IMG/VR virus record: IMGVR_UViG_3300033145_001325
Location: 1 to 32,096 of that record
From: a virus
Strand: one strand, 5' to 3'
Length of the DNA: 32,096 bases
Part shown: positions 4,144 through 24,980 of the stretch, one piece after another
Numbering within the stretch: the first letter of the stretch is position 1
How the letters are laid out: every line of letters starts with the position of its first letter
The notes under the pieces: generated by a model
What the model was told of the DNA's origin: nothing
Database searches by the model: none
What the model saw: only the letters and a program-made list of their open reading frames with translations
Translations under genes and position numbers: made by a program

Positions 4144-4171
4144 TTAAAATCTCCCCTTTTTAAGATTTTAT

Positions 4172-5499: not shown

Positions 5500-5503
5500 A
5501 CGC

Positions 5504-5707: not shown

Positions 5708-5729
5708 TTACCCCACCTCCGTTCAAAAT

Positions 5730-5750
5730 AAAAAACCGCCGTGAGGCGGT
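5730..5750 (-). terminator. Rho-independent terminator at the end of the tail operon
   Basis: On the minus strand ACCGCC, loop TCAC and GGCGGT are followed by TTTTTATTTTG. It separates the tail genes from the lysis cassette by only 23 bases, so lysis genes need read-through, antitermination or a promoter I cannot see. Confidence 0.85.
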
Positions 5751-5771
5751 ATTATATGTACTTTACTGTGC

Positions 5772-5939: not shown

Positions 5940-6346
5940 TCTACCACCACCTGTTTTTTTATTCTTCCGTGCCGGCCAGCATCTATTTCAACGGTATAAG
6001 TGCCAGGAATTTCAAATATTACAGGCCAAGTACAGGGCATTTGTCCGTGGGCTTGTTCCTCACCGTCAATATAAAGAACAACTTCAATGCCGTCGCCCTG
6101 TTTGTCAGGCGTCAATGCTGAAATATTAACTTGTTCCATTGCCTCGGGGTTCGTGTTGGAAATTTTGACTTCTACCGGTGTATATGGCACTATATTGTTT
6201 CCTTCTAAATAATATCCCAAGGGAAGAACTTTTATCTTTTGCGCTGTTTCCTTCGTTATTTCAATTTGGCCTTCGTTAAGGGGTACATTAGCTTCTGTCC
6301 TCCCCAACGTTGTTATCATGCTGCCCTGCGTTTCAATCCAAAACAT
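5936..6346 (-). CDS. Tail/fibre-associated protein with Ig-like C-terminus
   Basis: A 136-residue protein. The C-terminal half reads like an immunoglobulin-type beta sandwich (TPVEVKISNTNPEAMEQVNI; VVLYIDGEEQAHGQMPCTWP; VIFEIPGTYTVEIDAGRHGR). The N-terminal part (MFWIETQGSM) is short and hydrophobic. ATG 6346 has GGAGG seven bases upstream and overlaps the preceding stop (TGATG). Ig-like modules decorate tail fibres and capsids and may bind surface glycans. The gene follows a long fibre protein, so a fibre-decoration or chaperone role is possible but inferred. Confidence 0.6.
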   Translation of the reverse strand: MFWIETQGSMITTLGRTEANVPLNEGQIEITKETAQKIKVLPLGYYLEGNNIVPYTPVEVKISNTNPEAMEQVNISALTPDKQGDGIEVVLYIDGEEQAHGQMPCTWPVIFEIPGTYTVEIDAGRHGRIKKQVVVE

Positions 6347-7134
6347 CACTCCACCTCCCAGTCTATCTGACAGTTAAGCGATTGAGCAGCTGTATCTGTA
6401 TTTTCGAATTCTATTACCAAATTAGAGCCGCTGATATATATTTCATTTATCCTGATTTCCTCATGGCCTGTTGCCTTGCGCCCAAAGCCAGAACTAGAAC
6501 CAGCAACCGTTATTTTGCCTAGATATGCTCTAGATATAGCAGCGGCTGAAACGTCAGGACTAGCTCTGTGACCCACGGCTAAGGTTTTAAGATTATCGGT
6601 ATTGAAAAATACCATAACCCCGTGTATTCCCATATCTGTTTCGGTGGTAGTATAATTACTTACAGTTAATTTACCCCTTATTTTATCGCTTCCTATGGCA
6701 ATTTGCTTCGTCAACGTAGACCCAGCATCAATGCTGTCTGTATAATGTACACTTCCGCTGGTTATAGTGCCGCCGTCTAACCTATTTTTGTCAGCCGCAC
6801 TCATAAACCCTGCCACAGAAGTTGTCGCGACTGGGTGTTCAGAAGTCCCACCCTGGCCACGATGGTCTACGCCTTTAAGTTTATCCGCATCCAGCCCACT
6901 CCCTGCGCCGTCTACATTCTTAATTTTGGCTAGTACATCAGCATCCTCATAGTCGCTTGTTAGAACAAAAACATTCCCTGTTACATTTGAACCATGCACT
7001 TGAATATCACTTGTTCCGTCAGTTTTTGCAACCTCAGACTTAACCTCATCGTACTGGGTTTCAAGTTTGTTTAAATTTTCAGCACTAATCCCAGGCGCAC
7101 TGCCTTCAACCCAAGTAGTTTTTGTATACGCCAT
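6346..7134 (-). CDS. Tail fibre / receptor-binding protein
   Basis: A 262-residue protein. The N-terminus MAYTKTTWVEGSAPGISAEN, then LNKLETQYDE, is a phage fibre attachment motif seen in many Firmicutes phages. It is followed by fibre-type repeats (GLDADKLKGVDH at about 78-89; TTSVAGFMSAADKNRLDG) and a beta-rich C-terminal part (GKLTVSNYTTTETDMGIHGV... NLVIEFENTDTAAQSLNCQI) likely to bind the host surface. It sits at the end of the tail operon and is short for a complete fibre, so it may trimerise with the other fibre genes. The family is inferred from composition and motifs. Confidence 0.78.
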   Translation of the reverse strand: MAYTKTTWVEGSAPGISAENLNKLETQYDEVKSEVAKTDGTSDIQVHGSNVTGNVFVLTSDYEDADVLAKIKNVDGAGSGLDADKLKGVDHRGQGGTSEHPVATTSVAGFMSAADKNRLDGGTITSGSVHYTDSIDAGSTLTKQIAIGSDKIRGKLTVSNYTTTETDMGIHGVMVFFNTDNLKTLAVGHRASPDVSAAAISRAYLGKITVAGSSSGFGRKATGHEEIRINEIYISGSNLVIEFENTDTAAQSLNCQIDWEVE

Positions 7135-7142
7135 ACCCTCAC

Positions 7143-7598
7143 CTACCCTATCGTGTCAGTTCGCTCAATTTGCAAACTTTCAAGTTCCGTTTTGTTCTTG
7201 CTGTACAAAACCCGCGCTATCAATACTCCGCTGTCTTTTGTGCTCGTGGCCTCAGCCCCCGCAAACCAGCCTATTTCTTCAATTTGCTGATTAGCTTCAT
7301 ACGGGGCAATGTAGACTGTTGTTGTCAGTTCTCCCGTTGCGCCCGTTTCCTGTTTCGTTACCTGCTTCCTGAAAAATTCATTGCCAAGCTTCGTGTCACT
7401 GCTTGCAGGGACTGTATTATTATCGCCAAGTGCAACGTACTTAATTTCACCGTCAGTTACTGTGCCGTCAAGCACATCACGCAAGAGGTTCTTACCTGCA
7501 TCGGTAATGAGGTTTTCCAGTTCATCAACTTGCTTTGTACCGTCTCTAAATATAGAAATGACACGGATTTTGCCGCGCCAGGGTATTCGCTCTTTCAT
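7143..7598 (-). CDS. Baseplate/collar-type tail protein
   Basis: A 151-residue protein starting at ATG 7598 (MKERIPWRGKIRVIS), with AGGGGTGA upstream; the frame is open further upstream, but that part is antisense-like and overlaps the hub gene. Motifs include DAGKNLLRDVL, IKYVALGDNNTVP, DTKLGNEFFRK, and EIGWFAG followed by LIARVLYSKNKTELESLQIE. I recall this pattern from a common tail/baseplate family lying between hub and fibre genes. It probably links the hub to the fibres. It is 11 bases after the hub C-part stop, which suggests coupling. Confidence 0.65.
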   Translation of the reverse strand: MKERIPWRGKIRVISIFRDGTKQVDELENLITDAGKNLLRDVLDGTVTDGEIKYVALGDNNTVPASSDTKLGNEFFRKQVTKQETGATGELTTTVYIAPYEANQQIEEIGWFAGAEATSTKDSGVLIARVLYSKNKTELESLQIERTDTIG

Positions 7599-7608
7599 AT
7601 CGTCACCC

Positions 7609-8709
7609 CTAACATGGATAAAGTGTACTGCTAGGGTACAAATCAATGCTCGGCACCGGGCACGCAAACACGTTTTTAACAACGTTTTCTGCCCAAGGCC
7701 ACGATTCACTGTATGTTTGAAGTGTGACTAGTACTTGGTCTTCGCCGATATTTATACGCTCGACAAACGCCTGTCCTCTCGTTGCCATAGCGTGGAACAT
7801 TTTTGCCCAGCTTCCTTGCTCCGGTCCTTCCACGGCAACAACATCGTACCAAAGGGTATTTTGCTCCTCTGTAACTGTTACGGACTCAACCAACAGCTCA
7901 TCATTGTCAAAATCGTGCTCCGGCAGGTTGACAGTAAGCAGCTGTCCAGGCTGAAGACCACTACGCCGCGTCCTAAACCTCAGCCTGCGCCCAATTATTG
8001 CGTATTTTTGGAGTTTCTTGTTAGCAAGCTGAAACGCCGCGTCGCGGTTGGTTATGTTCGGCTCGTCAGCAACATCCTCAACGTAACCCGTGCCGCCGCC
8101 TTCTACTTGCTGCCTGTCTACTATTGCCGCGTTATCTTCGCTTAAAACCACAATGTCATATTCGCCCTGGTAAGTTATCCTTACCTTGTCCGCGCTGGTA
8201 AGAACGGTCTCGGAATCATCTTGAACAATTACAGGGTCGCCTTTGCTCCAGTACCACTGCTTGCCCGTTTCAACTCCTTTAATCCCGATTGTTTGCGCTG
8301 TCCATGCCCCGCCGCTTATGCTTACCTCAACCGTCGGTACTTTTGCGATTGGGAAACCGACCGTAAACGACCGCGCTTCTCCGTCTCCAACCTTTGTCTC
8401 CGTCTGCGGGTCGGTTATATCGCGGCCGCCTTTAACATACTGCCTGTTTCTGTATTTCGGATTTCCGTGCTCTACGCTTACGCTGTCGTGCTTCATGTTG
8501 TCGGCGGTAGCCGTCCAAGGAGCGGCGTTTGATTCTCTGGCTTTGAAATGAAGCCGCCTATATGGGGTTATTCGCCACCAGAAAACGGATTTTTCGGCAA
8601 GTTCGTCAGATGCTTGGGTTACGGGCACATAATTAAAAATGGCCTCCTTGACAACGGGACCGTCTTGAATGTTGTTAGATAAATCTGCCCAGGTAGTTAT
8701 TTTAACCAC
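7609..8709 (-). CDS. Baseplate hub protein, C-terminal part (split gene)
   Basis: A 366-residue protein. From residue 13 it reads IQDGPVVKEAIFNYVPVTQA, then DELAEKSVFWWRITPYRRLH, which normally lies in the middle of siphovirus hub proteins and follows the domain found here in the separate ORF 9759-10166. The rest is beta-rich (SFTVGFPIAKVPTVEVSISG; VRITYQGEYDIVVLSEDNAA; LRFRTRRSGLQPGQLLTVNL). A TAG stop directly precedes the GTG at 8709, so this is a new translation start with AAAGG five bases upstream. Twelve extra residues (VKITTWADLSNN) precede the family start. The first part of the hub is 1.05 kb upstream, beyond three fibre-type genes. I infer that the two parts associate to form one hub. 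Confidence 0.75.
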   Translation of the reverse strand: MVKITTWADLSNNIQDGPVVKEAIFNYVPVTQASDELAEKSVFWWRITPYRRLHFKARESNAAPWTATADNMKHDSVSVEHGNPKYRNRQYVKGGRDITDPQTETKVGDGEARSFTVGFPIAKVPTVEVSISGGAWTAQTIGIKGVETGKQWYWSKGDPVIVQDDSETVLTSADKVRITYQGEYDIVVLSEDNAAIVDRQQVEGGGTGYVEDVADEPNITNRDAAFQLANKKLQKYAIIGRRLRFRTRRSGLQPGQLLTVNLPEHDFDNDELLVESVTVTEEQNTLWYDVVAVEGPEQGSWAKMFHAMATRGQAFVERINIGEDQVLVTLQTYSESWPWAENVVKNVFACPVPSIDLYPSSTLYPC

Positions 8710-8734
8710 CTACCTTTTGTTGCACATTTAAGTC

Positions 8735-8926
8735 CTAAGCTTCATCAATCAAACCTATCTCAATAACTATATCATTAACTAACTCGCGTAGTTCTTTTAC
8801 AGAATTAGCATTCTTTGCTTTGTCTTTTATCCGTTGCCTTCGTACTTTCCTTTTCTGCTGTTCCTGCTCTTTTTGCTGTCTTTCCCGCCCTATTTCCTCC
8901 TGCGTTTTCCAGTGTACTTTACCCAC
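8735..8926 (-). CDS. Small charged coiled-coil protein of the fibre cassette
   Basis: A 63-residue, strongly basic and Gln-rich protein (REEIG-type start: KVHWKTQEEIGRERQQKEQE, then KRKVRRQRIKDKAKNAN). It starts at GTG 8926 with GGAGGTGGG upstream. Short charged proteins often follow tail fibre genes and may be chaperones or connectors. It is the last of the three genes between the hub halves. No family identified. Confidence 0.6.
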   Translation of the reverse strand: MGKVHWKTQEEIGRERQQKEQEQQKRKVRRQRIKDKAKNANSVKELRELVNDIVIEIGLIDEA

Positions 8927-9238
8927 CTAACCCACCTCCTGCCAGTCGGGAAAGCGTTCTTCTGGAGTTGCATCAGGCCCGTGGAAATATAAAAGTTCAA
9001 TTTCAAGCACTCCATCTGCTCGCCTTCGTCCACTCAAAATAGGACAGATTGGCAGAGTTGTCTCAATTAAAAGATTTCCTTCATCATCTCTATCTATTTC
9101 ACCTTCAGGTAAAGAGAAAAAATCAAAAGTATCTGTCATTTCATCTAGAGACGAAATTAGTGTTGCAGTGATAATCTCACCATCAAATTGGTATTTTAAT
9201 TTGTTATCATTACGTTGCGGACTATATTTAACAAGCAT
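8927..9238 (-). CDS. Fibre-cassette protein, unknown (103 aa)
   Basis: An acidic protein starting at ATG 9238 with GGAGG eight bases upstream; the in-frame GTG at 9247 is less well placed. The sequence is beta-like (KYQFDGEIITATLISSLDEM; DRDDEGNLLIETTLPICPIL; GVLEIELLYFHGPDATPEE). Its start overlaps the stop of the preceding fibre gene and its stop is adjacent to the next GTG, so the three genes are coupled. I infer a fibre assembly or connector role from position only. Confidence 0.6.
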   Translation of the reverse strand: MLVKYSPQRNDNKLKYQFDGEIITATLISSLDEMTDTFDFFSLPEGEIDRDDEGNLLIETTLPICPILSGRRRADGVLEIELLYFHGPDATPEERFPDWQEVG

Positions 9239-9759
9239 TACTTCCACCTCCCTATTGCTACCACTGCAACGTAAAACGCATGTCCATCTGGCAACGCGGC
9301 TCCTAATTTAATATTCCACCAATAATTCATAGACAACGAACCGTATCTTATGCCAGTCTGCGCATATCTATTTCCAGAATCAGCAGGAACAGTGTATCCA
9401 CTATTGTAGTGTACTTGTGCCACAAAAATATCTATAAAAGATGCAGGCCAGACTAAATCTGAACGAGAAAAATAAGTTGCCACCCCGTCACCTGTTTCCT
9501 CAAAAATTCTCCAACAAATCTGCATACCGTCAGCAAATCGCACATATTCACCATTCGCGTTAGAACCGCTTTCTTCAATTATTTTCCCGTCCGTAAGTAG
9601 AGAGTGAACATCGTCTGTCGCAGTATCGGCCTTATGTTCAGTAAACCGATCATCAATTGTCTGGAAATTATTAGGTAAATCAGTGCCAATGGTCTGATCT
9701 ATCTGGTCCGTTAATTCCGGCTTTACCAAATTTAAGTCTTTACCTGTTGTGGTTGACAT
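9238..9759 (-). CDS. Tail fibre / tip protein
   Basis: A 173-residue protein. The N-terminus MSTTTGKDLNLVKPELTDQID, with a later NNFQTIDDRFTEHKADTATD, is typical of phage fibre N-termini that dock to the baseplate. The C-terminal part (VRFADGMQICWRIFEE; GVATYFSRSDLVWPASFIDIF; HAFYVAVVAIGRWK) is a glycine- and aromatic-rich beta structure like short tip or receptor-binding domains, usually found at the end of longer fibres. ATG 9759 overlaps the TAA of the hub N-part (TAATG), so it is translationally coupled to it. Confidence 0.75.
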   Translation of the reverse strand: MSTTTGKDLNLVKPELTDQIDQTIGTDLPNNFQTIDDRFTEHKADTATDDVHSLLTDGKIIEESGSNANGEYVRFADGMQICWRIFEETGDGVATYFSRSDLVWPASFIDIFVAQVHYNSGYTVPADSGNRYAQTGIRYGSLSMNYWWNIKLGAALPDGHAFYVAVVAIGRWK

Positions 9760-10166
9760 TATAATTCACCCCACGTTTTGCCCGAATAAGCTTCCCAGGT
9801 TCCAATGCCTTCAGCTTGTAAATAATTGCTAACTATATCTTTTACAATATCTCCCGCCAGCGTATTTTCATAAGCTTTCGCCGCAATGCGTTTGTCGGCA
9901 AGATAATGCCAGTCTACGCATCTAATTGTATGAAGCTTCAAAGCACCAGGTCCCGGCTTCACTTCTTCCGCAGAGTCAATCACGCCTGCAAAAACAAGTG
10001 TGCCGTTGTCGTCTTCGACCTCAACAGGCTGGCCTTTGCGGTAGCTTGCCGTACCGTTATCATCACGCACGACAAACGTACAGGTTGAACGCTCGCCAAT
10101 CATGTCGTCTATGTTGAGCGTGCCCGAAAGGATATTTACCTGATTGCCGCCAATTCTGATTATCAT
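9759..10166 (-). CDS. Baseplate hub protein, N-terminal part (split gene)
   Basis: A 135-residue protein beginning MIIRIGGNQVNILSGTLNID, then RSTCTFVVRDDNG, KGQPVEVEDDNGTLVFAGVI and HTIRCVDWHYLADKRIAAKA, ending LAGDIVKDIVSNYLQAEGIG then TWEAYSGKTWGEL and TAA. The first about 120 residues match the N-terminal domain of siphovirus hub proteins (gp27-like fold) as I know the family. The expected continuation IQDGPVV appears only at 8670, in the separate C-part. The ATG overlaps the tape-measure stop (ATGA), the normal hub position. It is therefore half of a split gene, not a complete small protein. Confidence 0.78.
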   Translation of the reverse strand: MIIRIGGNQVNILSGTLNIDDMIGERSTCTFVVRDDNGTASYRKGQPVEVEDDNGTLVFAGVIDSAEEVKPGPGALKLHTIRCVDWHYLADKRIAAKAYENTLAGDIVKDIVSNYLQAEGIGTWEAYSGKTWGEL

Positions 10167-11869
10167 ATTCTTACCCCCGTTCTGATACGCACTTCGTCAG
10201 TAAGCGGCTGTCCTATTGCACGCGCAATCTGTCTGCCATCGAGGTAGATTGTTATGTTTGCGGTTTTGGGACCGCTCTGTCTGGGCGGAATTATCTCCTC
10301 TCCGCCGTGCACCACGGCAAGTTGCGGTTTCCCAATCGGCCCGGGCACAATGCCGCCGGCTGCGAATTTTGGTAACTTTTCTTGCGAAATCGGAATGCCT
10401 ATTTTGGAATAATCTATATCCAACTTTAATTCATGCTTTAACTTCATTGCCGCGCCCAACTGGCGCAAGTATTCTTTGCTTTTGCCGATTGGATAACCGA
10501 CACGCTTTACCCACTCTCTCGTTCGCGCATCTAACCTTGCCAAAGCTTTTGTAACTTCATCAGTTTTTTTCGCCAATTCACCTTGTGCTTTAGCCATGCT
10601 GTTGGCAGCGTCAGCAGCGCTAAACATTGATTTTATGTTCGAATTTAATGCCGGCACTTGTTGTGTTACATTTTCTGTCGTACTGCGAATCTGTTTTTCA
10701 AGTTGTGCCATTTCATACCCGGCCTTGCGTGCCGAAAGGGTAATGCGCTCATGGTCAATCATGCGCCCTACTTTTTCTCTGGCCTCAGTTACTTTGCTAT
10801 TTAAAACTGGGATGTACTTTGTAAACTTTTCAAGACCGATTAATATGGAGTGTATTGCGTCAAGGACCACCATCTTAATATAACCCCAGGCCTGGAGTGC
10901 GTAATAAGAAACTTTATCCCAGTTTTTGTAGAGAGCAATACCGGCGGCGATGAGCAAACCAATTGGCGTCAATAAAAATGATAATGCTGCTGCAAGCGCG
11001 CCTGCACCCATAATTAGCGGTCCTACAACAGCAACTACGCCTGCAATAGTAAGAATTAATTTTTTGGTCTTATCGTCAAGGCTTGTAAACCAATGAACCG
11101 CATTTCTAATTACACTTATTAGCTTTGCTGCATAAGGCATTAGTTCTTTGCCAATTGCCTCTCCGGCATTTTTAATATCAGCTTTCAGCGCTTTTAGCTG
11201 GTTGGCAAAGCTTCCTGCTGTTCGTATAGCATCCCCTTGGGCATCCGTCGTACCTTTTATGAGAAGTTGCATCCTTGCTTGCACTTTTTGCTGTTCTGAT
11301 AGTTTTTCGCCTACTTTTGCAATTCCTGATGAATAAGCTTCTTGTTTTAGGGCTGCCTCAGTAATAATAACTCCATATTTACGGACTGTTTCATGATTGC
11401 CGACAATAGCCGATTGAAAATCGCGGATAACATCTGCATCGGCTGCATTGTTGAATGATGCAACGTCAACAGCAAGCTGCGTCAGCGTTTTAGACATATC
11501 AGATGCTTCATCTCTGGCATATCCTAACGGTACAAATGTATCTTGAAGTGTAGACATCCAGCTCTTTACGTCTGTTCTTGCCCGACCAACGCTATCAGCA
11601 AATTGTATTGCCCATTGATTAGCGTCTTGAGCCATTTCACCAAATACTACATTAAACTTGCTTTGAACTTCTTCGGCATCAGAGGCCATTTTGATAGCCG
11701 CACCTGAAACCGCTAAAAACGGAAGTGTTACTTTTGTAGTGAGGTCACGGCCAAGTGACATCGCACTCTGCTTAAAAGAATTAAGTGTTTTTTGAGCGCC
11801 CTGCACATTCTTACTAAAACCGCTTGCGTCAGCGCCTATTTTAACAATCAATGATGCAAGGGTTGCCAT
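10163..11869 (-). CDS. Tape measure protein
   Basis: A 568-residue protein: N-terminal phage-tail motif (MATLASLIVKIGADASGFSK), coiled/helical segments, a tape-measure-type core (DAEEVQSKFNVVFGEMAQDA; LTTKVTLPFLAVSGAAIKMA), two hydrophobic stretches at about 268-310 (LILTIAGVVAVVGPLIMGAG; ALSFLLTPIGLLIAAGIALY) and a C-terminal part (KFAAGGIVPGPIGKPQLAVV, HGGEEIIPPRQ) ending in basic residues. Tape measures set tail length; 568 residues suggests a short tail of roughly 80-90 nm at about 0.15 nm per residue. It is read after the chaperone, but an antisense gene with its own terminator lies between them. The start is ATG 11869 with AAAGGGGG upstream. Confidence 0.92.
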   Translation of the reverse strand: MATLASLIVKIGADASGFSKNVQGAQKTLNSFKQSAMSLGRDLTTKVTLPFLAVSGAAIKMASDAEEVQSKFNVVFGEMAQDANQWAIQFADSVGRARTDVKSWMSTLQDTFVPLGYARDEASDMSKTLTQLAVDVASFNNAADADVIRDFQSAIVGNHETVRKYGVIITEAALKQEAYSSGIAKVGEKLSEQQKVQARMQLLIKGTTDAQGDAIRTAGSFANQLKALKADIKNAGEAIGKELMPYAAKLISVIRNAVHWFTSLDDKTKKLILTIAGVVAVVGPLIMGAGALAAALSFLLTPIGLLIAAGIALYKNWDKVSYYALQAWGYIKMVVLDAIHSILIGLEKFTKYIPVLNSKVTEAREKVGRMIDHERITLSARKAGYEMAQLEKQIRSTTENVTQQVPALNSNIKSMFSAADAANSMAKAQGELAKKTDEVTKALARLDARTREWVKRVGYPIGKSKEYLRQLGAAMKLKHELKLDIDYSKIGIPISQEKLPKFAAGGIVPGPIGKPQLAVVHGGEEIIPPRQSGPKTANITIYLDGRQIARAIGQPLTDEVRIRTGVRI

Positions 11870-16147: not shown

Positions 16148-17314
16148 TTACGCCCCGCTACCATTGCTGGCTACAGTCATTTTCGGATCCATTTGGGTCC
16201 CACCCAATACGTGTCTTACCTTGTACTGAATACTGTCGGTATCGAAGTCTCCGGCCATCGGGTCAGCAGCCCCGCCACCCACGCGCTGAGCATTCGGGCT
16301 CTTGATAAAGATTTCCGGCTCAGTATGACCGCGCAGGAAGCCAACTTCCAAAGCCGGCCGGTTATTGGCTGGATCCGCGAACAGGAACCAACTAGTATTA
16401 CCGTTAGCGCTGGAAGCCACGATTGGAATATAAGGATCCACATGCAGTTTCAACCGGTTCTTCATCCAGTTGACAGCAATCAGCTTTTGATTTGAAGTCC
16501 CGCCGGATTCAATCAGCTCCAATTGCAGAGCATTCAAGATATTCTCCGCTGTAATTTCCAGAGCTGGAGACACTACAAGGTGAACAGCGTCAATAATAAT
16601 CGGCTCACCGTCTGAATCGGTTTGTGCAGCCAGAATTGTCATAGCAGTTTGCAGAGCGGCAACAGACAGCGCCGGATTACCAGTTACAATGTTGCTGTTA
16701 CCGGCCGTGTAGAGGCTGGCATGAGGACCGCTGGAGTCAACATACAGGCCGGTAGCGAATTTCTGTTCTGTCCTGCGTGCAGCCCTGCCGAACCTGGCTG
16801 GAATATCCCTGAGTGCATCCAAGTCGTCATTGATAAGACTCTCCCATGAAAATGGAATCCTTCTACCGTACTTACTAACGCTGTAGTCGTATTTACCTTC
16901 ACTCAAACTGCTTTCGGGATATTCGGCTTGCTCTTTGACTTCATCCAATACGGCTTCGGCCCCGCTTACGGTAAACCGCTTAACTGTGCGGAAATCTCTT
17001 ACTGTTGCAATCCTGCAGTAATTGCGGTAGACCGCCGGAGTCTCCCGGTAGTTAGCCAGGAGCTGCCGATCCAGCACATCCCCGAACAGATAGGGGAAAT
17101 CGCTGGTGGTCATCGCTTCCTGCAGGTGATACACAGGCCTGCGGCCCTCAAATACATCAGCCATAAACTTAGCTGCTTCAGCAAGCTTCTTCATATACTC
17201 AGGGTTATTGCGCCCATGCGCCTGGCGCACTCCCTGGCCTTCAGAACCAAAAAGCCTCTGAACAGAGGCTTCTTCTGCGCGTATGTTTTCAATTACTTCT
17301 AAGAATTCAGCCAT
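16148..17314 (-). CDS. Major capsid protein (HK97-fold, Mu gpT-like)
   Basis: A 388-residue protein. N-terminal part is helical and charged (FLEVIENIRAEEASVQRLFG); then DFPYLFGDVLDRQLLANYRE, TPAVYRNYCRIATVRDFRTV and KRFTVSGAEAVLDEV, SESKYGRRIPFSWESLIND-like region (YGRRIPFSWESLINDDLDAL), VVSPALEITAENILNALQLE, and a final NRPALEVGFLRGHTEPEIF then DSIQYKVRHVLGGTQMD. The phrases 'L...R.L...Y......Y...C......DF...' and 'YGR.I..SWE..IND.L' are those of the Mu-like/HK97-fold capsid family. Only a single small gene follows before connectors. ATG 17314 has GGGAG upstream at 12 bases. Confidence 0.92.
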   Translation of the reverse strand: MAEFLEVIENIRAEEASVQRLFGSEGQGVRQAHGRNNPEYMKKLAEAAKFMADVFEGRRPVYHLQEAMTTSDFPYLFGDVLDRQLLANYRETPAVYRNYCRIATVRDFRTVKRFTVSGAEAVLDEVKEQAEYPESSLSEGKYDYSVSKYGRRIPFSWESLINDDLDALRDIPARFGRAARRTEQKFATGLYVDSSGPHASLYTAGNSNIVTGNPALSVAALQTAMTILAAQTDSDGEPIIIDAVHLVVSPALEITAENILNALQLELIESGGTSNQKLIAVNWMKNRLKLHVDPYIPIVASSANGNTSWFLFADPANNRPALEVGFLRGHTEPEIFIKSPNAQRVGGGAADPMAGDFDTDSIQYKVRHVLGGTQMDPKMTVASNGSGA

Positions 17315-17329: not shown

Positions 17330-17671
17330 TTAATAACCGATTTTTACCTTGATGTTAGTGGTTGCTCCGCTGGCTACAGCTTCAAGAGCATAACCAAAGC
17401 GAATACCATTTGTAGCATCAACATTTAGTATCCCGCCATCATAGTAAATAACATCTCCGGCAGAAATAGCTGCATCGCCAACATCATCAGCACCGTTAAC
17501 ATCTAACTTATATACGCCACTAGTGTCAATAGTAGCCTTACCGTCGCTGTCCCGGTCAATCTGAGCTACACCGGGGATATTGCCAAACACTACGGGGTCA
17601 CCAGAACTGGTACCTTCCGGCACATCTACATACAGGTAACGACCATCTTCATAAACCCTATTTTTTGCCAT
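17330..17671 (-). CDS. Capsid decoration/cement protein (DUF2190-like)
   Basis: A 113-residue protein (MAKNRVYEDGRYLYVDVPEG; GDPVVFGNIPGVAQIDRDSD; GKATIDTSGVYKLDV; GDVIYYDGGILNV; GIRFGYALEAVASGATTNIK; VKIGY). The succession 'G.....VP.G...GDPV..G...GVA........G.A.I...GV..L.V........GD.IYYD.......V......GYALE.V..GAT..I.VKI' is DUF2190. These proteins sit right before the capsid gene and decorate or stabilise capsids. ATG 17671 has GAGGTAT upstream. Confidence 0.88.
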   Translation of the reverse strand: MAKNRVYEDGRYLYVDVPEGTSSGDPVVFGNIPGVAQIDRDSDGKATIDTSGVYKLDVNGADDVGDAAISAGDVIYYDGGILNVDATNGIRFGYALEAVASGATTNIKVKIGY

Positions 17672-17674
17672 TTT

Positions 17675-18097
17675 TTATACCTCCCTGCCCTTTGCAGCAA
17701 TTTTGGCAGCACTCTCAGTAAGCCCCAACCGCGCAAAGGAACTTTCTAAAGTTTTTTCAACTTCCTCAAGATTCACATCTCCGCTTCCGCCTTCACCCAT
17801 GCCCTTGATTTTTCCGGAACCGGTCACTTTCGCTAGATAGTCCACTTCTGCATCTATGGCCTCTTTGATTTTCTTCTTGTACTCGTCCTTGTCCAGCTCG
17901 CCATCTTTGAGCATGGGCTTTTGTGCCAGGCTTTCAACCAGGCGCTGCTTGGTGATGTCAGGCAGCTTGGCTTCCTTCAGCTGCTCAGAAACAAAATCCC
18001 TCGCCTCTCTTAAGATCAGGGACTCCTTTAAGCGCTTATTCTCCTCTTCCAGTTTGCTATTGGTTTCTTCAAGCTTTTTCAGCTTTTCGTCACTCAT
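17675..18097 (-). CDS. Nested scaffold protein (internal start in the protease gene)
   Basis: In-frame ATG 18097 (MSDEKLKKLEETNSKLEEEN) has GGAGG with an eight-base gap, an ideal ribosome site that is unusual inside a gene. It begins exactly where the protease part ends and the coiled coil starts. The 140-residue product would have N-terminal coiled coil and C-terminal basic/GREV part. This is the arrangement of lambda C/Nu3. The site is visible; its use is inferred. Confidence 0.6.
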   Translation of the reverse strand: MSDEKLKKLEETNSKLEEENKRLKESLILREARDFVSEQLKEAKLPDITKQRLVESLAQKPMLKDGELDKDEYKKKIKEAIDAEVDYLAKVTGSGKIKGMGEGGSGDVNLEEVEKTLESSFARLGLTESAAKIAAKGREV

Positions 18098-19591
18098 CCG
18101 CTTCGCCTCCTCGAATTTATTTTTCTCGCCATACACAGCCGCTTTGATTTCTGTCCTCAGTCCTTCGACTAGATCGGGTCTATTGCGCTTAACCTCGTCC
18201 AATGTAATGGCATCCCAGTTCACTTCATCTTCACTCCTTCCCGCTGCCTTTGCCCTGGCAGCTTCGAATAGCTCAATCACTTTGCCGCCAGCCCCGGGAG
18301 TAGTGACAAAGTCCACGCTTTCTGCTGCGGCGATTTTCTCTATAATGGGGCCTGTCTTTCCTTCCGCCTCTCCTTGTTTGGCTTTGCCCAGGGCTCGATG
18401 GCTAATGCCAATGTGCGGAGCTAGCTCTTTGACAGCTTCTTGATACGGCCCAAATACCTTAGCATCAGCATAAATACCGGGGCCGTCCGGGCCATTTTCC
18501 TCAAAACGTCCATCGGAAACCAAAACGCCCGCTAGGTCTCTCAACGAGCGCTCAGGCCGTTCGTTTTCTTCGGTTTTAGTCGGATGGTCCCAGTACATTT
18601 TTAAACCGGCTTTGTAGACGCCGGTGTCTCTTTCAAGAACTTCTTTAGAATAATACCCGGAATTACCCCAGCCTGGCTGAATAATTTTAATGGGGATAGT
18701 CCCATCCCTGCGGACTGCCTTCTCAACAAGAGGAATAAATTCGCCTGCTAAGTTTTGTTCACCATCAGATTCTTTAATGTGCGCCGGCATTTCTTTCGGG
18801 TCCCGGTCCGGATTAACCTTCTTCCAAGCTGCTCTAAGCTTGGCTTTTACTTTCGCCACATCCTTTGCTGGGATATCTACTTTTTGCCCCCGGAATCCTC
18901 CAGGACTGAAGGCTGCAATAGCACGGCCCACCTGCGCTGCTGTCATCTTCTTCTGTGGGTCTTCCCACAGCCGAAGTTTCCACGTGCTTGGCTTGTCGGG
19001 ATCGGGCACGTATGTATAAGCTTCTGCCGGATACTGCTTTCCGTCCTCGGTTTTGGTCTTGGCCTCTTCTAATCCACGGTTAGATTCCTGCGTTTTTACG
19101 GGTTTGTAAGTTATTTCTTTTACTACTTCAACCGGATCACCCAGCATTACCTTGCCGTTGTCGTCAATAACATAAGTACGCTTAAAGAGCTTCATTTTGC
19201 CGGTAGCATCATCCCGAGGTTCATCTTCGTAGATGAAATAACTGCTGAAAACGTCACGGATGAAGTACCACCGTTTGGTTGCTGGGTTCTCATTGTGCAA
19301 GGCCTGCCGCAACTGTTGCCGGATCTGGTCATGGCTCAGTTCTGCTTCAATCAGTTTTTTTGCTTCCCAGATTGCTTTTTTCTTTTCGGCCTCTTCTACG
19401 TTATCACCCTGCCCCAGTTTGGCTATAATATCCTGCAGCGCTTTGATGGCCGCTTTGATTTTGTTTTCATTATCCTTGCTGACCACTCTGCCGACTTCTT
19501 CAAGTCTCTGCAAGGTATCTTGAACTTCATTCATGCTTTCCGTCACCACTCTTTCTGCAATTCGGTCACCGATCCAGATTGGCAAGAGCAT
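17675..19591 (-). CDS. XkdF-like prohead protease with C-terminal scaffold (fusion)
   Basis: A 638-residue protein. The N-terminal third is helical and then reads TWKLRLWEDPQKKMTAAQVG and AFSPGGFRGQKVDIPAKDVA, a segment I know from phage head proteins. About 278-450 is the XkdF-like protease part: GTIPIKIIQPGWGNSGYYSK, MYWDHPTKTEENERPERSLR (His of the active site), LAGVLVSDGRF, GIYADAKVFGPYQEAVKELA, HIGISHRALGKAK (Ser), ESVDFVTTPGAGGKVIELFE. The last about 140 residues are coiled-coil scaffold (KLKKLEETNSKLEEENKRLK). ATG 19591 has AAGGGGG seven bases upstream and overlaps the end of the Asn-synthetase-like gene. Function: prohead maturation and scaffolding. An internal start yields free scaffold. 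Confidence 0.83.
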   Translation of the reverse strand: MLLPIWIGDRIAERVVTESMNEVQDTLQRLEEVGRVVSKDNENKIKAAIKALQDIIAKLGQGDNVEEAEKKKAIWEAKKLIEAELSHDQIRQQLRQALHNENPATKRWYFIRDVFSSYFIYEDEPRDDATGKMKLFKRTYVIDDNGKVMLGDPVEVVKEITYKPVKTQESNRGLEEAKTKTEDGKQYPAEAYTYVPDPDKPSTWKLRLWEDPQKKMTAAQVGRAIAAFSPGGFRGQKVDIPAKDVAKVKAKLRAAWKKVNPDRDPKEMPAHIKESDGEQNLAGEFIPLVEKAVRRDGTIPIKIIQPGWGNSGYYSKEVLERDTGVYKAGLKMYWDHPTKTEENERPERSLRDLAGVLVSDGRFEENGPDGPGIYADAKVFGPYQEAVKELAPHIGISHRALGKAKQGEAEGKTGPIIEKIAAAESVDFVTTPGAGGKVIELFEAARAKAAGRSEDEVNWDAITLDEVKRNRPDLVEGLRTEIKAAVYGEKNKFEEAKRMSDEKLKKLEETNSKLEEENKRLKESLILREARDFVSEQLKEAKLPDITKQRLVESLAQKPMLKDGELDKDEYKKKIKEAIDAEVDYLAKVTGSGKIKGMGEGGSGDVNLEEVEKTLESSFARLGLTESAAKIAAKGREV

Positions 19592-20330
19592 GCACAAACC
19601 CCCTTTTTGGGCGCTGAATCACCCATTCCGGTACCCCAGCCAGACGGGCAACCTCGCGCCAAAATGCTTTACCGATCCCATCCCGGACCCGCTCACTCAA
19701 TGGAATCCGGGCAATGTAGCCAACAACAGTGGGCTGGAGATATACCCAGTGGAGATTGACTCCCACCTGGTCCGCCGCCCGGAACATCGGCTTCAGGTGT
19801 TTTGGCTCAAGCTCGTTCCAAAAATACTCAAACGCATCCTCAATTCTTGGAAACTGTTCATCTCTGTGACTGTGCCACCAGTAACCGCCCATCTGCTCGT
19901 CGATGCCGTCGGTGGCAATGATATCCGTAACCCACTTGGAAGCGAACCGCAAGGCCAACAGAACGCCATCGTCGCCCGGGAAGTATAGGCCTCGAACCTC
20001 TCTTCGGGCAGATTCCTTAGCCTGCCTACTCGGGACATACAGGCGCCAGTCAATGCCCCATTCCTCCGCCAGTCGCCCTGCCGCGATCACATCGGGGTGG
20101 TCTAATCCGGTCCCAATTGTGAAGCACGGAACGTCAGGGCTCACCTTTCGCAGGAGTGCCACCAGCAGGGCACTGTCAACGCCCGCAGACAGCAGAACAC
20201 CGGGGCGTTCGCACCAGCGAACCGTTTCCGTGACGACCTTCTCCAAGAGCTCAATCAGGCCAGCAGCAGAATAGGAACCATCAGTCGGATTCCTCCAACT
20301 GCCGATTTGCGCAGGGAACCTCCTGACCAT
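19566..20330 (-). CDS. Stand-alone asparagine-synthetase-like ATPase (PP-loop)
   Basis: A 254-residue protein equal to the C-terminal (synthetase) domain of asparagine synthetases. The PP-loop is LLSAGVDSALL at about 46-56 (canonical SGGxDS, here SAGVDS). ATDGIDEQMGGY at 139-150 matches the G-D-G-x-D-E-x-x-G-G-Y motif. Residues about 185-245 match the tail, with LPxS...DGIGKAFWREVARL and IQRPKRGF (239-245). There is no N-terminal glutaminase (Ntn) domain, so it would use free ammonia or another nucleophile after adenylating a carboxylate. It overlaps the ChaB-like gene by 50 bases and the protease gene by 26, so it is coupled to the head operon. ATG 20330 has GGAGGC upstream. The substrate is unknown: lysine-rich or acidic head proteins, DNA bases and small metabolites are all possible. 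Confidence 0.85.
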   Translation of the reverse strand: MVRRFPAQIGSWRNPTDGSYSAAGLIELLEKVVTETVRWCERPGVLLSAGVDSALLVALLRKVSPDVPCFTIGTGLDHPDVIAAGRLAEEWGIDWRLYVPSRQAKESARREVRGLYFPGDDGVLLALRFASKWVTDIIATDGIDEQMGGYWWHSHRDEQFPRIEDAFEYFWNELEPKHLKPMFRAADQVGVNLHWVYLQPTVVGYIARIPLSERVRDGIGKAFWREVARLAGVPEWVIQRPKRGFVHALANLDR

Positions 20331-20766
20331 CAGCCTCCGCCTCCTCGTCGCTCCAATAAACGTCTTGATTGTCGGCTAAGCCCTGCACAACATGATAAAT
20401 CTTCCCCTTGACCACAAGATGGTCGATAACGTACTTGTTCCCGAGGTGGTCAACCAAAAGACAGTGGTGCAGCAACTCTTTCTTCCCATCGATCACTACA
20501 TGGTGAATGAGATAGGCCCAGTCTTCGAGGTTTTTTTCCGCTTCTTGAAGGAACGCCAGTTTTCGCTTGGCTTTGGCCATCGCCTCCGTAACTTTCTGGG
20601 CCACGGTGTTCGCCTGCCGGATAGCTTTTGGCGCGCAAGTCTCGTCTGTACCTCCCGCTTCAATACAACGGGCCAGGGCGTCGTTGGCTACCCTGACCCA
20701 AACTTTTTTCTGTTTATCGGTCAAGCTTTTAATATGTTTGTCCACATCTTTGACGGTCCAGGGCAT
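20281..20766 (-). CDS. ChaB-like head-operon protein
   Basis: A 161-residue protein. The N-terminal MPWTVKDVDKHIKSLTDKQK, with WVRVANDALARCIEAGGTDE and CAPKAIRQANTVAQKV, is a ChaB-like helical domain that I know from phage head operons of this type. The C-terminal half is unusual: after the helix NLEDWAYLI comes a His- and Val-rich stretch (HHVVIDGKKELLHHCLLVDH; LGNKYVIDHLVVKGKIYHVV) and an acidic tail (WSDEEAEADGQEVPC). Role unknown. It lies between the minor head protein and the Asn-synthetase-like gene and overlaps the latter by 50 bases. Confidence 0.7.
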   Translation of the reverse strand: MPWTVKDVDKHIKSLTDKQKKVWVRVANDALARCIEAGGTDETCAPKAIRQANTVAQKVTEAMAKAKRKLAFLQEAEKNLEDWAYLIHHVVIDGKKELLHHCLLVDHLGNKYVIDHLVVKGKIYHVVQGLADNQDVYWSDEEAEADGQEVPCANRQLEESD

Positions 20767-21639
20767 TTATTCACCACCTTCCTGCCGCTTTCGCCGATAA
20801 AGACAATCACACCGGCAGCCCGGAAACCGCGGCGGCCGCTGGTGACCGCTGGGGAATTCCTCATCAATGTCAATCCAGCCTGCGTCCTGGTTCTCCTCGC
20901 AGCCGTCGGAAACCCGGTCATCCCCCACGGTTAGCCAAGACTTTTCCATAAGAACGCCCTGTTTCTGTATCTCCTTGGCCGCGATCCGGTTGCCTTCCTC
21001 GTAGGCCTCGGCTGTCTCGGTTACAGCTACCAAGTGCGCCCGGCTATCTATGTGCTCTTGCGGCTTCCCTACCGCAAATTCCTCAAACCGGCTGGATATT
21101 TCCCGGGCCATCCTGTCATAGGACCAGCCTTTTTCGGTTCCCCGGGTGATTATCGTCTTGATCCGGGCCCGGGTGGTATTGTTAATATTGGTCACTTTTT
21201 CAGCAGCATGTAATTCTAAATATTCAACCGCCCTGGGGTTCTCCAGGTCAAACGCTATGTTGACTTTCAAATCTGCTATGGTTTTTAAAGCGGCTGCCTG
21301 CAGTGCCTTCTTAGCAGCTTCTTTGATTGGCTCTCGTATTAGGTCGCCCGTTTCCGAAAATACTTGCTCAAAAATCGGATCTGTTTCATCGTCGTTGATT
21401 GATTCCTTTAGTCTCACAGACTCTTTAAACCGCGACTTAAATTTCTCAAACTTATTTAAAAAAGCTTTCTTTTGTGCTCGGAAAGCTTTTTGCATGTCTT
21501 TTTCAAGTTTTTTCTCTATCGGCGCTAGAGCTTTGTTTTTCATGGATCGGTGCATGGCCTCCAGGAACCGATCCAGCGCTTCAAGCAGCTTCTTCGCTCG
21601 CAAAACGGGCCACCGCCTCTCTAAGTTCACGAACGGCAT
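20767..21639 (-). CDS. Minor head protein (SPP1 gp7 / Mu gpF-like)
   Basis: A 290-residue protein. N-terminal helical region, then ARIKTIITRGTEKGWSYDRM and AREISSRFEEFAVG, RAHLVAVTETAEAYEEGNRI, MEKSWLTVGDDRVSDGCEEN (with Cys), WIDIDEEFPSGHQRPPRFPG then CRCDCLYRRKR. The 'T..GW...RMA.EI...F.......RA..IA.TE...A...G', 'K.W.T..D.RV...C' and 'PP.HP.CRC...Y' motifs are the Phage_Mu_F domain. It binds the portal and aids capsid assembly or DNA injection. It overlaps the portal gene's end by 59 bases and ends one base before the ChaB-like gene. Confidence 0.9.
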   Translation of the reverse strand: MPFVNLERRWPVLRAKKLLEALDRFLEAMHRSMKNKALAPIEKKLEKDMQKAFRAQKKAFLNKFEKFKSRFKESVRLKESINDDETDPIFEQVFSETGDLIREPIKEAAKKALQAAALKTIADLKVNIAFDLENPRAVEYLELHAAEKVTNINNTTRARIKTIITRGTEKGWSYDRMAREISSRFEEFAVGKPQEHIDSRAHLVAVTETAEAYEEGNRIAAKEIQKQGVLMEKSWLTVGDDRVSDGCEENQDAGWIDIDEEFPSGHQRPPRFPGCRCDCLYRRKRQEGGE

Positions 21640-23194
21640 CCACCATCATGGTTTCAATTTCTTGTTCCTCTTCTTTGTTCCGGCCCTCCCCTTCTTCATC
21701 ATCCGGGAATAAATCTTCTAGTATTTCATCCACGTTTTCTTCACCGAGCGCCAGGAGCAGCATGCGGGTAATGCGCTTCAGGTCCAGAGTGCCGGCCGGT
21801 GTTTTACCGTCCAGAGTGGCTGCGCTAACGATGGCGCTTACCTTTTCTTTCGCGTCCTTCTCCAGGATATCCGGGAAAGTGACATTAACCCTGTTGCTCA
21901 TGTCGTTCGCCAGCTGCACGTATTCTTCGCCGTATTCATTTTTCAGTATCTGCCCCGGCAATTTACCTTTCGGCGCTCTCACAGACTGCTCAATTACAAA
22001 CTGGCACATTTCCTTGAATACACCGGCCCACAGCTGCTGTCTATTTCTAAACATGAGCTCCATCGGCCGTTCCATGCTTTTGGCAGTGGCCAGGTTCCCC
22101 GTTGATGGATCGCCAAAATAATGCTCATATATACCTGTTGCTGCGCTGACCATAAGCAAAAGCCGCCGACCGTCCTCGGCCTTAGTGGTAGCGCCGGCGG
22201 TTTTTATGGGTTCCAGCCTTGCTCCCTCGGTTCCAATAAAAGCGCTTGCCGTTACCGCCGGCGGGTTAGTTTCGGCTCCGCTATTAATGCCAAGAGTGCT
22301 TTGTAATTTATCTTTAGCTTTAGCAACACCCTTTTTACCGCCTTTAGCTGTGAGTTGCCATGCGAAACGTGAGTATGCTTTTACTATTGTGGCCCAGTTC
22401 TCTAAAAATTCCTTGTATGCCCGGGCCCAGTCAATGCCCGCATAAACCTCTGATACGCCAAATTTCATGTCACTGAGTTTATTTACTGCTACATGGTACA
22501 CGAGAGCATCTTCAACCGGCTTGCCCCCAATGGCCTTCGGGTGGCCCCCGGTGGGGTTGTATTTCCAATCAGGGTAATAAGCCACTCTCTGCCGGATTTC
22601 ATAATTGCCAGTACTGGTGTTAAATCGCCGCTCTATCCATACCCGCTTATAGTACCAGGGCTCTTTTGCGTCCTCCGGGTTACAAATAATGTCCTCTATT
22701 TCGTCTACCGGTATGGTTCGTATCCTAACCGTACCTGTTGAGCGATTAACAAAAAAGACAAAGAAAATATTCCCAAAGCACTGCATCTCCGTCTCTTTAA
22801 TCATCCGGGCCTGGTGCTCGGTAAATTCTGCCCGGTTCTTAGGGTCGTCCAGGAACTCTTGAATAACTTCGTTTACGTCCGGATCTTCTGCTTCAATGTT
22901 CACCCCTTGGCCAAATACATATTGTGTCTGTGTAAGAACAGCTCGCTTAATGAGCGGGTTCTTAATCCAGTACAGCCGGGCCAGCTGGTTAATTTTGCGT
23001 AAACCTTCCCGGGAAAATTCTCGGTTGCTTTCGGAACTGAGCTTCATCCAGCCGGCGTCTTCCAGGGCCAGCTCCAGCTCGGCCAGGCGCTCCTGCAAGA
23101 ATTCCAAACTTTCATCACGCTGCTCTATCGCTTCTTGCATTTTTTCTAGATCTTCAGAAAGGATTTTTCTGGCAGCTTCTTGAAATATACCCAT
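21581..23194 (-). CDS. Portal protein (SPP1/Mu-like)
   Basis: A 537-residue protein. N-terminal coiled coil (EDLEKMQEAIEQRDESLEFL; QERLAELELALED), then LARLYWIKNPLIKRAVLTQT, QYVFGQGVNIEAEDPDVNEV, IQEFLDDPKNRAEFTEHQAR, MQCFGNIFFVFFVNRSTGTV, RIRTIPVDEIEDIICNPEDA, and VSAATGIYEHYFGDPSTGNL with AKSMERPMELMFRNRQQLW. These are the phage portal layout for Firmicutes phages. The C-terminal tail is acidic with EENVDEILEDLFPDDEEG. ATG 23194 has GGAGAG upstream at nine bases. The portal lies downstream of TerL, separated by a 289-base gap that contains a plus-strand ORF. Confidence 0.92.
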   Translation of the reverse strand: MGIFQEAARKILSEDLEKMQEAIEQRDESLEFLQERLAELELALEDAGWMKLSSESNREFSREGLRKINQLARLYWIKNPLIKRAVLTQTQYVFGQGVNIEAEDPDVNEVIQEFLDDPKNRAEFTEHQARMIKETEMQCFGNIFFVFFVNRSTGTVRIRTIPVDEIEDIICNPEDAKEPWYYKRVWIERRFNTSTGNYEIRQRVAYYPDWKYNPTGGHPKAIGGKPVEDALVYHVAVNKLSDMKFGVSEVYAGIDWARAYKEFLENWATIVKAYSRFAWQLTAKGGKKGVAKAKDKLQSTLGINSGAETNPPAVTASAFIGTEGARLEPIKTAGATTKAEDGRRLLLMVSAATGIYEHYFGDPSTGNLATAKSMERPMELMFRNRQQLWAGVFKEMCQFVIEQSVRAPKGKLPGQILKNEYGEEYVQLANDMSNRVNVTFPDILEKDAKEKVSAIVSAATLDGKTPAGTLDLKRITRMLLLALGEENVDEILEDLFPDDEEGEGRNKEEEQEIETMMVDAVRELREAVARFASEEAA

Positions 23195-23216: not shown

Positions 23217-23495
23217 GTGATTATCTTCCTCTTTCCGGACCCTGTTCGTTACGTTGCGAAGGCGGAATATCAACGGATACGTAACACGCGCTGCATGATC
23301 TGCTGGCACTTGCCCCCGAATTTTGTTTACAACGCAAAGAAACATGGATATCAGGGCTGGATTGGCTACCTTTGGCCGCTGTGCGAGAAGCACCGGTGGT
23401 ACGTGCAGCAAATGGGCTGGTACGATTTCCTTAAAAAATACAAGATTGATACTACCAACGACCCCGCCGAGTTATTTCCGCACCTAAACCGGTGA
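23217..23495 (+). CDS. Plus-strand zinc-motif protein between TerL and portal
   Basis: A 92-residue frame from GTG 23217 with a weak AAAGG site too close for certainty. Its product reads VRYVAKAEYQRIRNTRCMIC, then WHLPPNFVYNAKKHGYQGW and LCEKHRWYVQQMGWYDFLKK. It pairs CxxC (CMIC) with CxxH (CEKH) about 34 residues apart and is rich in Trp and Tyr, as real zinc proteins are. It overlaps the TerL stop by 12 bases on the other strand and fills a gap where the minus strand has no convincing gene. No terminator follows. Family not recognised. Confidence 0.58.
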   Translation: MIIFLFPDPVRYVAKAEYQRIRNTRCMICWHLPPNFVYNAKKHGYQGWIGYLWPLCEKHRWYVQQMGWYDFLKKYKIDTTNDPAELFPHLNR

Positions 23496-24980
23496 TATTT
23501 CTACCGGGTCATCGTAGATCGCGATATCGTCCCCTTCCAAAATCTCATCTAACCTAGCCAAGACAACAGCTGCATAAGCTGCTATGTCAACCTGATCATC
23601 GTATTCAGCGTTCGGAAAACCTATCAGCTCTTCCTCGTACTCATCCAGCCAAGACGCTCCCTGTAAATGATAAACAGCACCAACTTCATACCGCGCTGCC
23701 ATCGGCAGGGCCCGGGTAACTTTGTCCTTGTCCGGCTTCAGTTCAACCAAGGGCAGCCACATCCGCTGCAATGTCTGGAACAGCGTCAGCCCCATGTTCG
23801 CCGGTTCAACACCCTGTATTATTGGCTGCCAGCGTTGGTACCCAGTCTTAAATAACTTTGGCTGATCCGGGCCCTCTAACCTTTCTCTAATTATGTCTCT
23901 CAACAACAATTCCCGGTGCGGCGTTACAATCCAGGTAGCTAAAACGAAATAGTCTGCCGTGGTCTTTGTGCTGCCGGCCGGGTCGCAAGTCTGGAAAATC
24001 AGGCACTGGTTTTTCATCCAGCGCTTTCTTTGCCCGTCAGGTAGATGCAACACATAAAATTCATCTTCGATGTTGTAATACCGAAAATATTGGCGCTTAA
24101 AAAGGTTCCCCTCTGCCGGCGAAGGTCTCTGTTGATATAAGGCATTCCACCAGTAAGAGCCAAGCCGGACCTTTGTCCGTTCTAGCGTCTTCTTCGTAAA
24201 CAATTCCGGGCAAAGTGGTTCCCCAGGTGTACGTCCCAATAAATCGCCTTCCTCGGCTAACCCCGGCAGATTAACAACTTCCCATTGGTCGCTGCCCTCT
24301 TCTTGCGCTTTCAGTAGTCTACCGGCAAGATCATCCTCATGCCAGCGGGTCATGACTAAAATAATAGCGCCTTCGTCTTGAATACGGGTCGAAAATGTTG
24401 CTCGGTACCAATCCCAGGTCGCATCCCTGTACGTCTGGCTCATTGCTTCCTGGTCGTTTTTAACCGGATCGTCAATAATAGCCACGTTAGCACCTTTACC
24501 TGTTATCGGACCCCGGACGCCGGCAGTTGCCATACCTCCCTCGCAGCCTTCAATATCCCACCGGCTTGCAGCTGAAGAAGCGCTTGAAACTTTTATTCCA
24601 AATAAAGAAGGCCCGTGCTCCTCCAGGAGGTCCCGGGCCTTGCGTCCCCATGTGGACGCGAAATCAGCTTCGTAGCTGGCCAGGATTATTCGTTTATCTG
24701 GAAACGTGCCAATATACCAGGCCGGAAAATACCGGCTAACCAGTTCACTTTTCCCATGTCGCGGCGGCATAAATACCATCAGGCGCTTAATTCTGCCGGC
24801 CGCCACGTCTACTAACTTCCGGTTTAATAAAAGCAGATGTTCAAATGGTACCCAGCGTCCTTCGCTAACGGTCCATGCGAAGTGCGCCGGCGTCACGGCC
24901 CGCAGCGCGTCGTAAGAGGTTTTCTGCGAGCTCGACGGCTTCCGGGTCTGCGATGATTCGCTGTGTAATTTCGTACTCAT
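23484..24980 (-). CDS. terL: Terminase large subunit
   Basis: A 498-residue protein. Walker A at about 72-79 (PPRHGKSE) preceded by LMVFM; Walker B region VAIIDDP at 166-172; coupling motif ILVMTRWHEDD at 207-217; then PGLAEEGDLLGRTPGEPLCP. The C-terminal nuclease carries QTCDPAGSTKTTADYFVLAT at about 332-351 and YDDQVDIAAYAAVVL near the end, both with catalytic Asp. This is the packaging motor and DNA cutter. The start (ATG 24980) overlaps TerS by 116 bases; GGAGG lies 12 bases upstream. A shorter start is possible but the family N-terminus ALRAVTPAHFAWTVSEGRW lies in the overlap. Confidence 0.93.
   Translation of the reverse strand: MSTKLHSESSQTRKPSSSQKTSYDALRAVTPAHFAWTVSEGRWVPFEHLLLLNRKLVDVAAGRIKRLMVFMPPRHGKSELVSRYFPAWYIGTFPDKRIILASYEADFASTWGRKARDLLEEHGPSLFGIKVSSASSAASRWDIEGCEGGMATAGVRGPITGKGANVAIIDDPVKNDQEAMSQTYRDATWDWYRATFSTRIQDEGAIILVMTRWHEDDLAGRLLKAQEEGSDQWEVVNLPGLAEEGDLLGRTPGEPLCPELFTKKTLERTKVRLGSYWWNALYQQRPSPAEGNLFKRQYFRYYNIEDEFYVLHLPDGQRKRWMKNQCLIFQTCDPAGSTKTTADYFVLATWIVTPHRELLLRDIIRERLEGPDQPKLFKTGYQRWQPIIQGVEPANMGLTLFQTLQRMWLPLVELKPDKDKVTRALPMAARYEVGAVYHLQGASWLDEYEEELIGFPNAEYDDQVDIAAYAAVVLARLDEILEGDDIAIYDDPVEISPV

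Follow-up and report, generated by a model that had tools for sequence, protein, structure and literature searches.

The window, a viral contig of 32,096 bases with its head genes on the minus strand, encodes a stand-alone asparagine-synthetase-like enzyme and, overlapping its start, a partner gene (Table 1). Comparison across relatives shows that this enzyme and the C-terminal ~80 residues of the partner (hereafter the HHC domain, with the pattern ..HH..E..HHC..H..WS) constitute a co-inherited two-gene unit. The pairing of enzyme and domain, together with its association with phage head genes, is very well supported. We further propose that the enzyme is an ATP-dependent, carboxylate-activating ligase or amidase that is dedicated to the HHC domain and acts at the portal or inside the procapsid, a proposal of which we infer the chemistry and the substrate and which we rate just short of an even chance.

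Table 1. Head genes of the window, with the elements of the partner and enzyme genes.
Feature	Position	Strand	Remarks
Terminase	23484-24980	-	First in the head-gene order
Portal protein	21581..23194	-	phrog_10963, E 3.2e-98
MuF minor head protein	20767..21639	-	PF04233, E 6e-12; adjoins the partner gene on its upstream side
Partner gene, 161 aa	20281..20766	-	Helical N-terminal half and conserved C-terminal domain
Partner N-terminal half, residues 1-75	20542..20766	-	Helical; 'ChaB-like' in appearance only; relatives have another N-terminal half or none
Conserved partner (HHC) domain, residues 80-145	20332..20529	-	Low-confidence four-stranded sheet; H88, H89, E97, H100, H101, C102, H116, W138, S139
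Shine-Dalgarno-like GAGGAGGCGGAGG for the enzyme gene	20334..20346	-	Strong; within partner codons
Partner C-terminal tail GQEVPCANRQLEESD	20284..20331	-	Kept in relatives; unstructured in the model; DNA overlaps the first codons of the enzyme
Stand-alone asparagine-synthetase-like ATP-dependent ligase (predicted), 254 aa	19566..20330	-	ATG 20330, stop 19566
PP-loop LSAGVDS, residues 47-53	20172..20192	-	S48, G50, D52 and S53 invariant in the family
DGIDEQMGGY, residues 141-150	19881..19910	-	D141 at the place of AsnB E348 / human E364; Asp in 34/34
RPKRGF, residues 240-245	19596..19613	-	K242 corresponds to the catalytic Lys (human K466)
Head maturation protease gene	17675..19597	-	phrog_15531, E 2.9e-28; next downstream of the enzyme; likely start 19591
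Head decoration/cement protein	17330..17671	-	PF09956, E 2.2e-13
Probable major capsid protein (MCP)	16148..17314	-	L006 homologue 39%; protease-decoration-MCP order the same in L006

Membership of the asparagine synthetase (AsnS) superfamily was apparent from both profile and fold. The window enzyme matched the Pfam Asn_synthase profile PF00733 above its curated cut-off (E 6.7e-22, 79.1 bits against 21), and its AlphaFold2 model (pLDDT 88, pTM 0.88) had human ASNS and E. coli AsnB as best PDB fold matches, superposed over almost the whole length (TM 0.77-0.78, E down to 6e-11). All three of the motifs SAGVDS, GIDEQMGGY and RPKRGF were found, and the Pfam profile search detected no glutaminase domain in the 254 residues, in agreement with the sequence-only reading, which had described a synthetase C-domain standing by itself. 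The overlaps that it gave, 50 bases with the upstream gene and 26 with the protease gene, are likewise correct (20281-20330 for the former; the latter with the protease ATG at 19591, becoming 32 bases with the TTG at 19597). Among 34 aligned members S48, G50, D52, S53, D144, E145 and K242 are invariant, as is the GY pair, and PP-loop position 49 is Gly in 33 of the 34, the Ala of the window enzyme being the only deviation. Considering the full-length homologues, the catalytic residues kept in 34/34 and a dN/dS of 0.18-0.27, indicative of purifying selection, the gene is not a chance reading frame.

Judged on residues and profiles, however, this is not an asparagine synthetase, as several AsnB features fail. 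The score against TIGR01536, the curated AsnB model, was 61.8 bits and did not reach the cut-off of 267.1. The TTxR segment of AsnB is tied to aspartate binding; it is not conserved in the clade, where residues 115-118 are variable and G119-D120 is mostly kept instead (34-member alignment). Moreover, the AsnB Glu (E348, human E364), removal of which inactivates human ASNS (PMC6748925), is replaced by Asp in 34/34 members. With the ATP residues invariant and these two AsnB features altered, ATP-driven activation of a carboxylate is likely, and free aspartate is probably not the substrate. The enzyme thus shares with AsnB and human ASNS the C-domain fold, the PP-loop, a D-x-x-DE.GGY-type motif and the catalytic Lys in R.K..F, and differs from them, beyond the residues above, in lacking the glutaminase, in having a private partner domain and in its head-operon context. 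Beta-lactam and carbapenam synthetases are also AsnS-fold ligases turned to another carboxylate, although, unlike the enzyme here, they keep the full two-domain architecture and act on small molecules.

The enzyme clade comprises 37 distinct members (34 and three later ones, L220, L223 and L231), 36 of them on viral or phage-like contigs and one on a Shapirobacteria (CPR) contig. By iterated profile searches the HHC domain was found encoded upstream, on the same strand, in 35 of the 37: immediately upstream in 34, overlapping or a few bases off, and at a gene's distance in one, a methyltransferase-like gene standing between domain gene and enzyme in L194. No partner was recognisable beside the enzyme in L121 and L206, whose contigs measure 5.6 and 10 kb; both have a His-rich gene downstream, which was considered as a divergent partner and rejected, the similarity not being significant. 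The partner without the enzyme was met in L215, where it is frame-broken and no enzyme was found, and in G249. Outside the clade, none of ~148 other AsnS-like ORFs had the domain beside it, the comparison resting on an earlier set of 166 distinct AsnS-like ORFs with full-length AsnB of many phyla and viral AsnB of ~450-490 aa. In a maximum-likelihood tree a single branch, with 98/95 support and present in 96% of bootstrap trees, set apart all 18 of the partner-linked enzymes known at that stage, and enzyme and partner distances correlate (r=0.50, 0/5000 permutations). Fusion of domain and enzyme was never seen in the clade.

Downstream of the enzyme, a head protease gene is usually next. A protease or XkdF-like gene was confirmed there in the window, L004, L007, L011, L012, L106, L117, L118, L195, L197, L203 and L205, in L203 as a domain within a larger protein. 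The repeated linkage in homologues that the sequence-only reading anticipated is thus evident on both sides; the family is neither found mainly outside phages nor an isolated recent acquisition, and with its ATP motifs invariant it is no dead fold. In L008, a degenerate second copy of the C-terminal end of the enzyme (residues 202-254; 7041-7710) lies between enzyme and protease. The portals and MCPs beside the pair differ between phages, the window MCP matching only that of L006 and the window portal none. Since these proteins are mostly unlike from phage to phage, the pair is a cassette placed in different head modules. The enzyme of L126 is a full AsnB with glutaminase, accompanied by the same partner, and branches near the base of the clade, pointing to an amide-forming ancestry. 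On this ground the stand-alone enzymes may plausibly have lost the glutaminase, although L125 and L126 are long branches. The partner as a replacement glutaminase is disfavoured, as L126 keeps its own glutaminase and yet has the partner.

Within the HHC domain (34 sequences) C102 and H101 are invariant, H88, H89, H100, E97 and H116 nearly so, followed by W138-S139, and a dN/dS of 0.04-0.25 indicates purifying selection. The most invariant partner residues are hence His and Cys, and a metal site or a recognition fold would fit them as well as a substrate would. In the first two IMG/VR relatives (46% identical) the upstream gene was kept too, in its C-terminal part only. At the N-terminus the window, L006, L007 and L011 have a helical 'ChaB-like' half and L008 a different one; L004, L012 and L108 have almost none. 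The partner model is weak (pLDDT 72), its helical half resembling a 61-aa uncharacterised phage protein. A fold search of this model against PDB and BFVD gave no significant match, and the sequence found no convincing relative in Pfam, PHROGs or PDB; a GAGBD match (E 5.5e-4), seen in one partner member, was dismissed as a coiled-coil artefact. The label 'ChaB-like', which the sequence-only reading had attached to the gene, does not find Pfam support for the window partner at E<=1 and derives from the look of the sequence and the helical half. Of the partners suggested there, the upstream gene holds by way of its C-terminal domain and not of the ChaB-like half, and the N-terminal region of the protease is dispensable to the association.

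The partner tails vary by subgroup, ..GMTxKxKxKEW being present in 13/13 of one and ..PCxxRQL (..RQLx) in the other. Reading the partner as an amino-carrier protein with a LysW-like C-terminal Glu was rejected, E, K, G, N, D and S all occurring at the final position. The acidic WSDEEA stretch of the window doubles as the enzyme's Shine-Dalgarno, yet members of the KEW subgroup keep the acidic stretch although ~75 bases separate it from the enzyme start. L003, a seeming case of a shorter partner, was set aside: it is ~99.5-100% identical to L002 with pieces of the partner, protease and MCP genes missing, and is likely an assembly artefact or deletion product.

The HHC domain forms the C-terminus of a lambda-type portal (PF05136) in L193, of a Mu portal-MuF chain in L197 and L198, of an SPP1-type portal (PF05133) in L214 and, with weaker matches (E 7e-7, 4e-8), of phrog_2739 portals in L120 and L201, the fusions spanning four portal families. 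The L193 portal (2948-6088) also holds a LAGLIDADG insert (PF14528, E 4e-8) before the partner domain, probably an intein. In L118, L196, L203, L205 and L207 the domain ends proteins of 300-420 aa without clear function; that of L118 (3858-5120) matches phosphoribosyltransferase (PF00156, E 7e-9), with a start that is nucleotidyltransferase-like by look.

In L194 and in L223, the latter a contig of 286 kb on which many genes look like those of large phages, the partners begin with MSKARNVLE and MISVSQIFE, respectively. A peptide of the same kind opens five other nearby genes in L194 and four in L223, and none of 63,952 starts of other loci; the enzymes of both start without it. T4 capsid-targeting sequences are ~10 residues long and cut after Glu (PMC9026906), and the peptide, by its resemblance to them, is a candidate signal of this type. 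As in T4 internal proteins, partner and neighbours thus share a ~9-residue N-terminal peptide ending in Glu, targeting and cleavage being putative; unlike in T4, profiles of the T4-type protease (PF03420) and portal gave no match in the L223 and L194 records, the controls remaining unmatched too. Families of neighbouring genes with such short shared N-terminal peptides (MISVxxLFE, MSKARxILE), candidates for capsid targeting, were seen at L223:7780-11985, L194:6932-11750 and L190:8724-14266.

The pair is also found away from head genes. In L013, a Candidatus Shapirobacteria MAG contig, it lies between serS and secA with no phage genes, and in L125, L126 and L212 viral pairs stand away from recognisable head genes; these four count against an exclusive head role. 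The head-operon role put forward by the sequence-only reading is supported in part, by a linkage to head and upstream genes that recurs in dozens of divergent phages. G249, another Patescibacteria genome, has the partner alone. Patescibacteria samples yielded 2/280 and 1/380 (partly overlapping; 2 of ~660 sampled searches), and a Bacteroidota sample 1/296, on a phage contig. Metagenomes are the only known source of the pair, as enzyme and partner queries of three subgroups had no tblastn match in 50,697 records of isolated phages. PADLOC profiles gave 0 matches for 8 family proteins, and our literature search found no paper joining asparagine synthase, prohead protease and phage.

In the mechanism that we propose, an AsnS-fold ligase, its glutaminase half lost or dispensed with, would be dedicated to the HHC domain of the neighbouring gene. 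It would adenylate a carboxylate of the HHC-domain protein, with ATP converted to AMP and PPi; Glu97 and the C-terminal tail, both conserved, are candidate sites, as is the acidic WSDEEA stretch. The activated group would then be attacked by ammonia, or by an amine from that subunit or one beside it, leaving an amide on a side chain or at the C-terminus, or else an isopeptide bond. Given the place of the domain, at the portal vertex or within the procapsid, it is a head protein that would be modified while the capsid assembles. The domain as substrate is the simplest reading, because it is the domain and not the enzyme that is fused to portals; a cargo or a two-subunit enzyme predicts an enzyme-domain fusion or a signal on the enzyme.

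The outline would be that of a lasso-peptide cyclase, a synthetase domain working on a ribosomal substrate, here a virion protein. The cyclase McjC is an AsnS-like synthetase that activates a side-chain carboxylate (Asp/Glu) of a ribosomal peptide without glutamine hydrolysis (PMC4979651), whereas the putative substrate here is a folded domain on head proteins. The NCBIfam lasso model matched just 2/7 of the clade members tested, and weakly (best E 1.7e-6), and by-eye inspection of the listed neighbours of the pairs recognised neither a leader peptidase/RRE nor a lasso precursor. HK97 capsid cross-links are autocatalytic; the proposed mechanism would share with them covalent amide chemistry on head proteins, and differ in employing a separate ATP-dependent ligase.

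More broadly, the HHC domain may serve the portals and internal head proteins of tailed phages as a transplantable modification tag, amidated or cross-linked by its dedicated ligase in an ATP-driven maturation at the portal vertex of a kind not known before, an idea that we offer tentatively and put well below an even chance. Portal and head maturation is known mainly as folding, proteolysis and autocatalytic cross-linking. If true, an enzymatic covalent step would be added to head assembly, across four portal families, and a ligase whose target is a small domain, portable by genetic means, would become accessible to study. New are a protein domain that neither Pfam nor PHROGs contains and a defined clade of AsnS-like enzymes, members of which would be misread as metabolic genes.

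The same data were weighed against other explanations. The HHC domain could be an adaptor, a non-substrate subunit that brings the enzyme to the portal or procapsid, with another head protein, e.g. the MCP or the protease, as target. Its occurrence as a separate small protein or as a fusion on portal, MuF and unknown N-terminal parts would suit this role, as would a His/Cys core better conserved than any single acidic site and a protease that is usually the next gene. We consider it unlikely, though a serious contender: the adjoining portals and capsid proteins are so different between phages that a single conserved target besides the domain is hard to name, and the pair also occurs where no head genes are near (L013, L126). 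Quite unlikely is docking of cargo, in which the domain on portal, MuF or internal proteins would load the enzyme into the capsid, to be ejected with the DNA and act in the new host. In its favour, MuF proteins, which bind the portal, frequently bear effectors at their C-termini, and one VgrG extension only binds an effector (PMC5576092); furthermore, in L105 the catalytic core of a topoisomerase IB is joined to a MuF head protein (4807-6882; PF04233 + PF21338 + PF01028, E 1.3e-26) next to the pair, so that enzymes do ride on MuF in such phages. The HHC domain does resemble MuF polymorphic toxins (PMC5576092) in being an extra C-terminal domain on portal-proximal proteins, but no toxin signature was found in it and it is tied to a separate ligase gene. 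Against docking, the apparent capsid-targeting peptide of the two phages is on the partner and not on the enzyme, the enzyme-domain fusion that would be the simplest loading route was never seen, and the CPR pair has no capsid.

Another explanation is that of a head-independent two-gene system (a partner-regulated amidotransferase, a peptide-modifying or a toxin-antitoxin-like system) that has settled in head operons. The CPR copy between serS and secA, the pairs of L125, L126 and L212 and the tight translational coupling are congruent with such an origin. Neither protein matches PADLOC, however, and the repeated fusion to four portal families as well as the putative capsid-targeting peptides would be unexpected of a hitch-hiker; with the pair also rare in cells (the overlapping Patescibacteria samples and the one phage contig of Bacteroidota above), we find this decidedly improbable. 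That the gene is a metabolic passenger which provisions the infected cell, as a small asparagine synthetase or another amidase of free metabolites, accords with the clear AsnS fold and motifs, but is extremely improbable considering the missing glutaminase, the TIGR01536 shortfall, the unconserved TTxR, the Asp always found for E348 and the fixed linkage to one undescribed protein domain. Here the sequence-only reading, which had argued against a passenger gene, agrees with our analysis.

Other genes around the pair deserve mention alongside the proposed ligase. Sugar-nucleotide aminotransferase/epimerase-like genes lie within or just past the head genes in L120 (8678-12502), L201 (8719-10690) and L004 (9549-10517), in the first two directly after the enzyme. 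The L203 protein at 8715-11861 (1048 aa) begins like a methyltransferase and ends in an XkdF-like protease. Finally, a protein of the MuF region of L118 (1024-2970) looks, by eye only, as if it contained an intein/Hint element (..ILWVKHNGKTCFSGNC).
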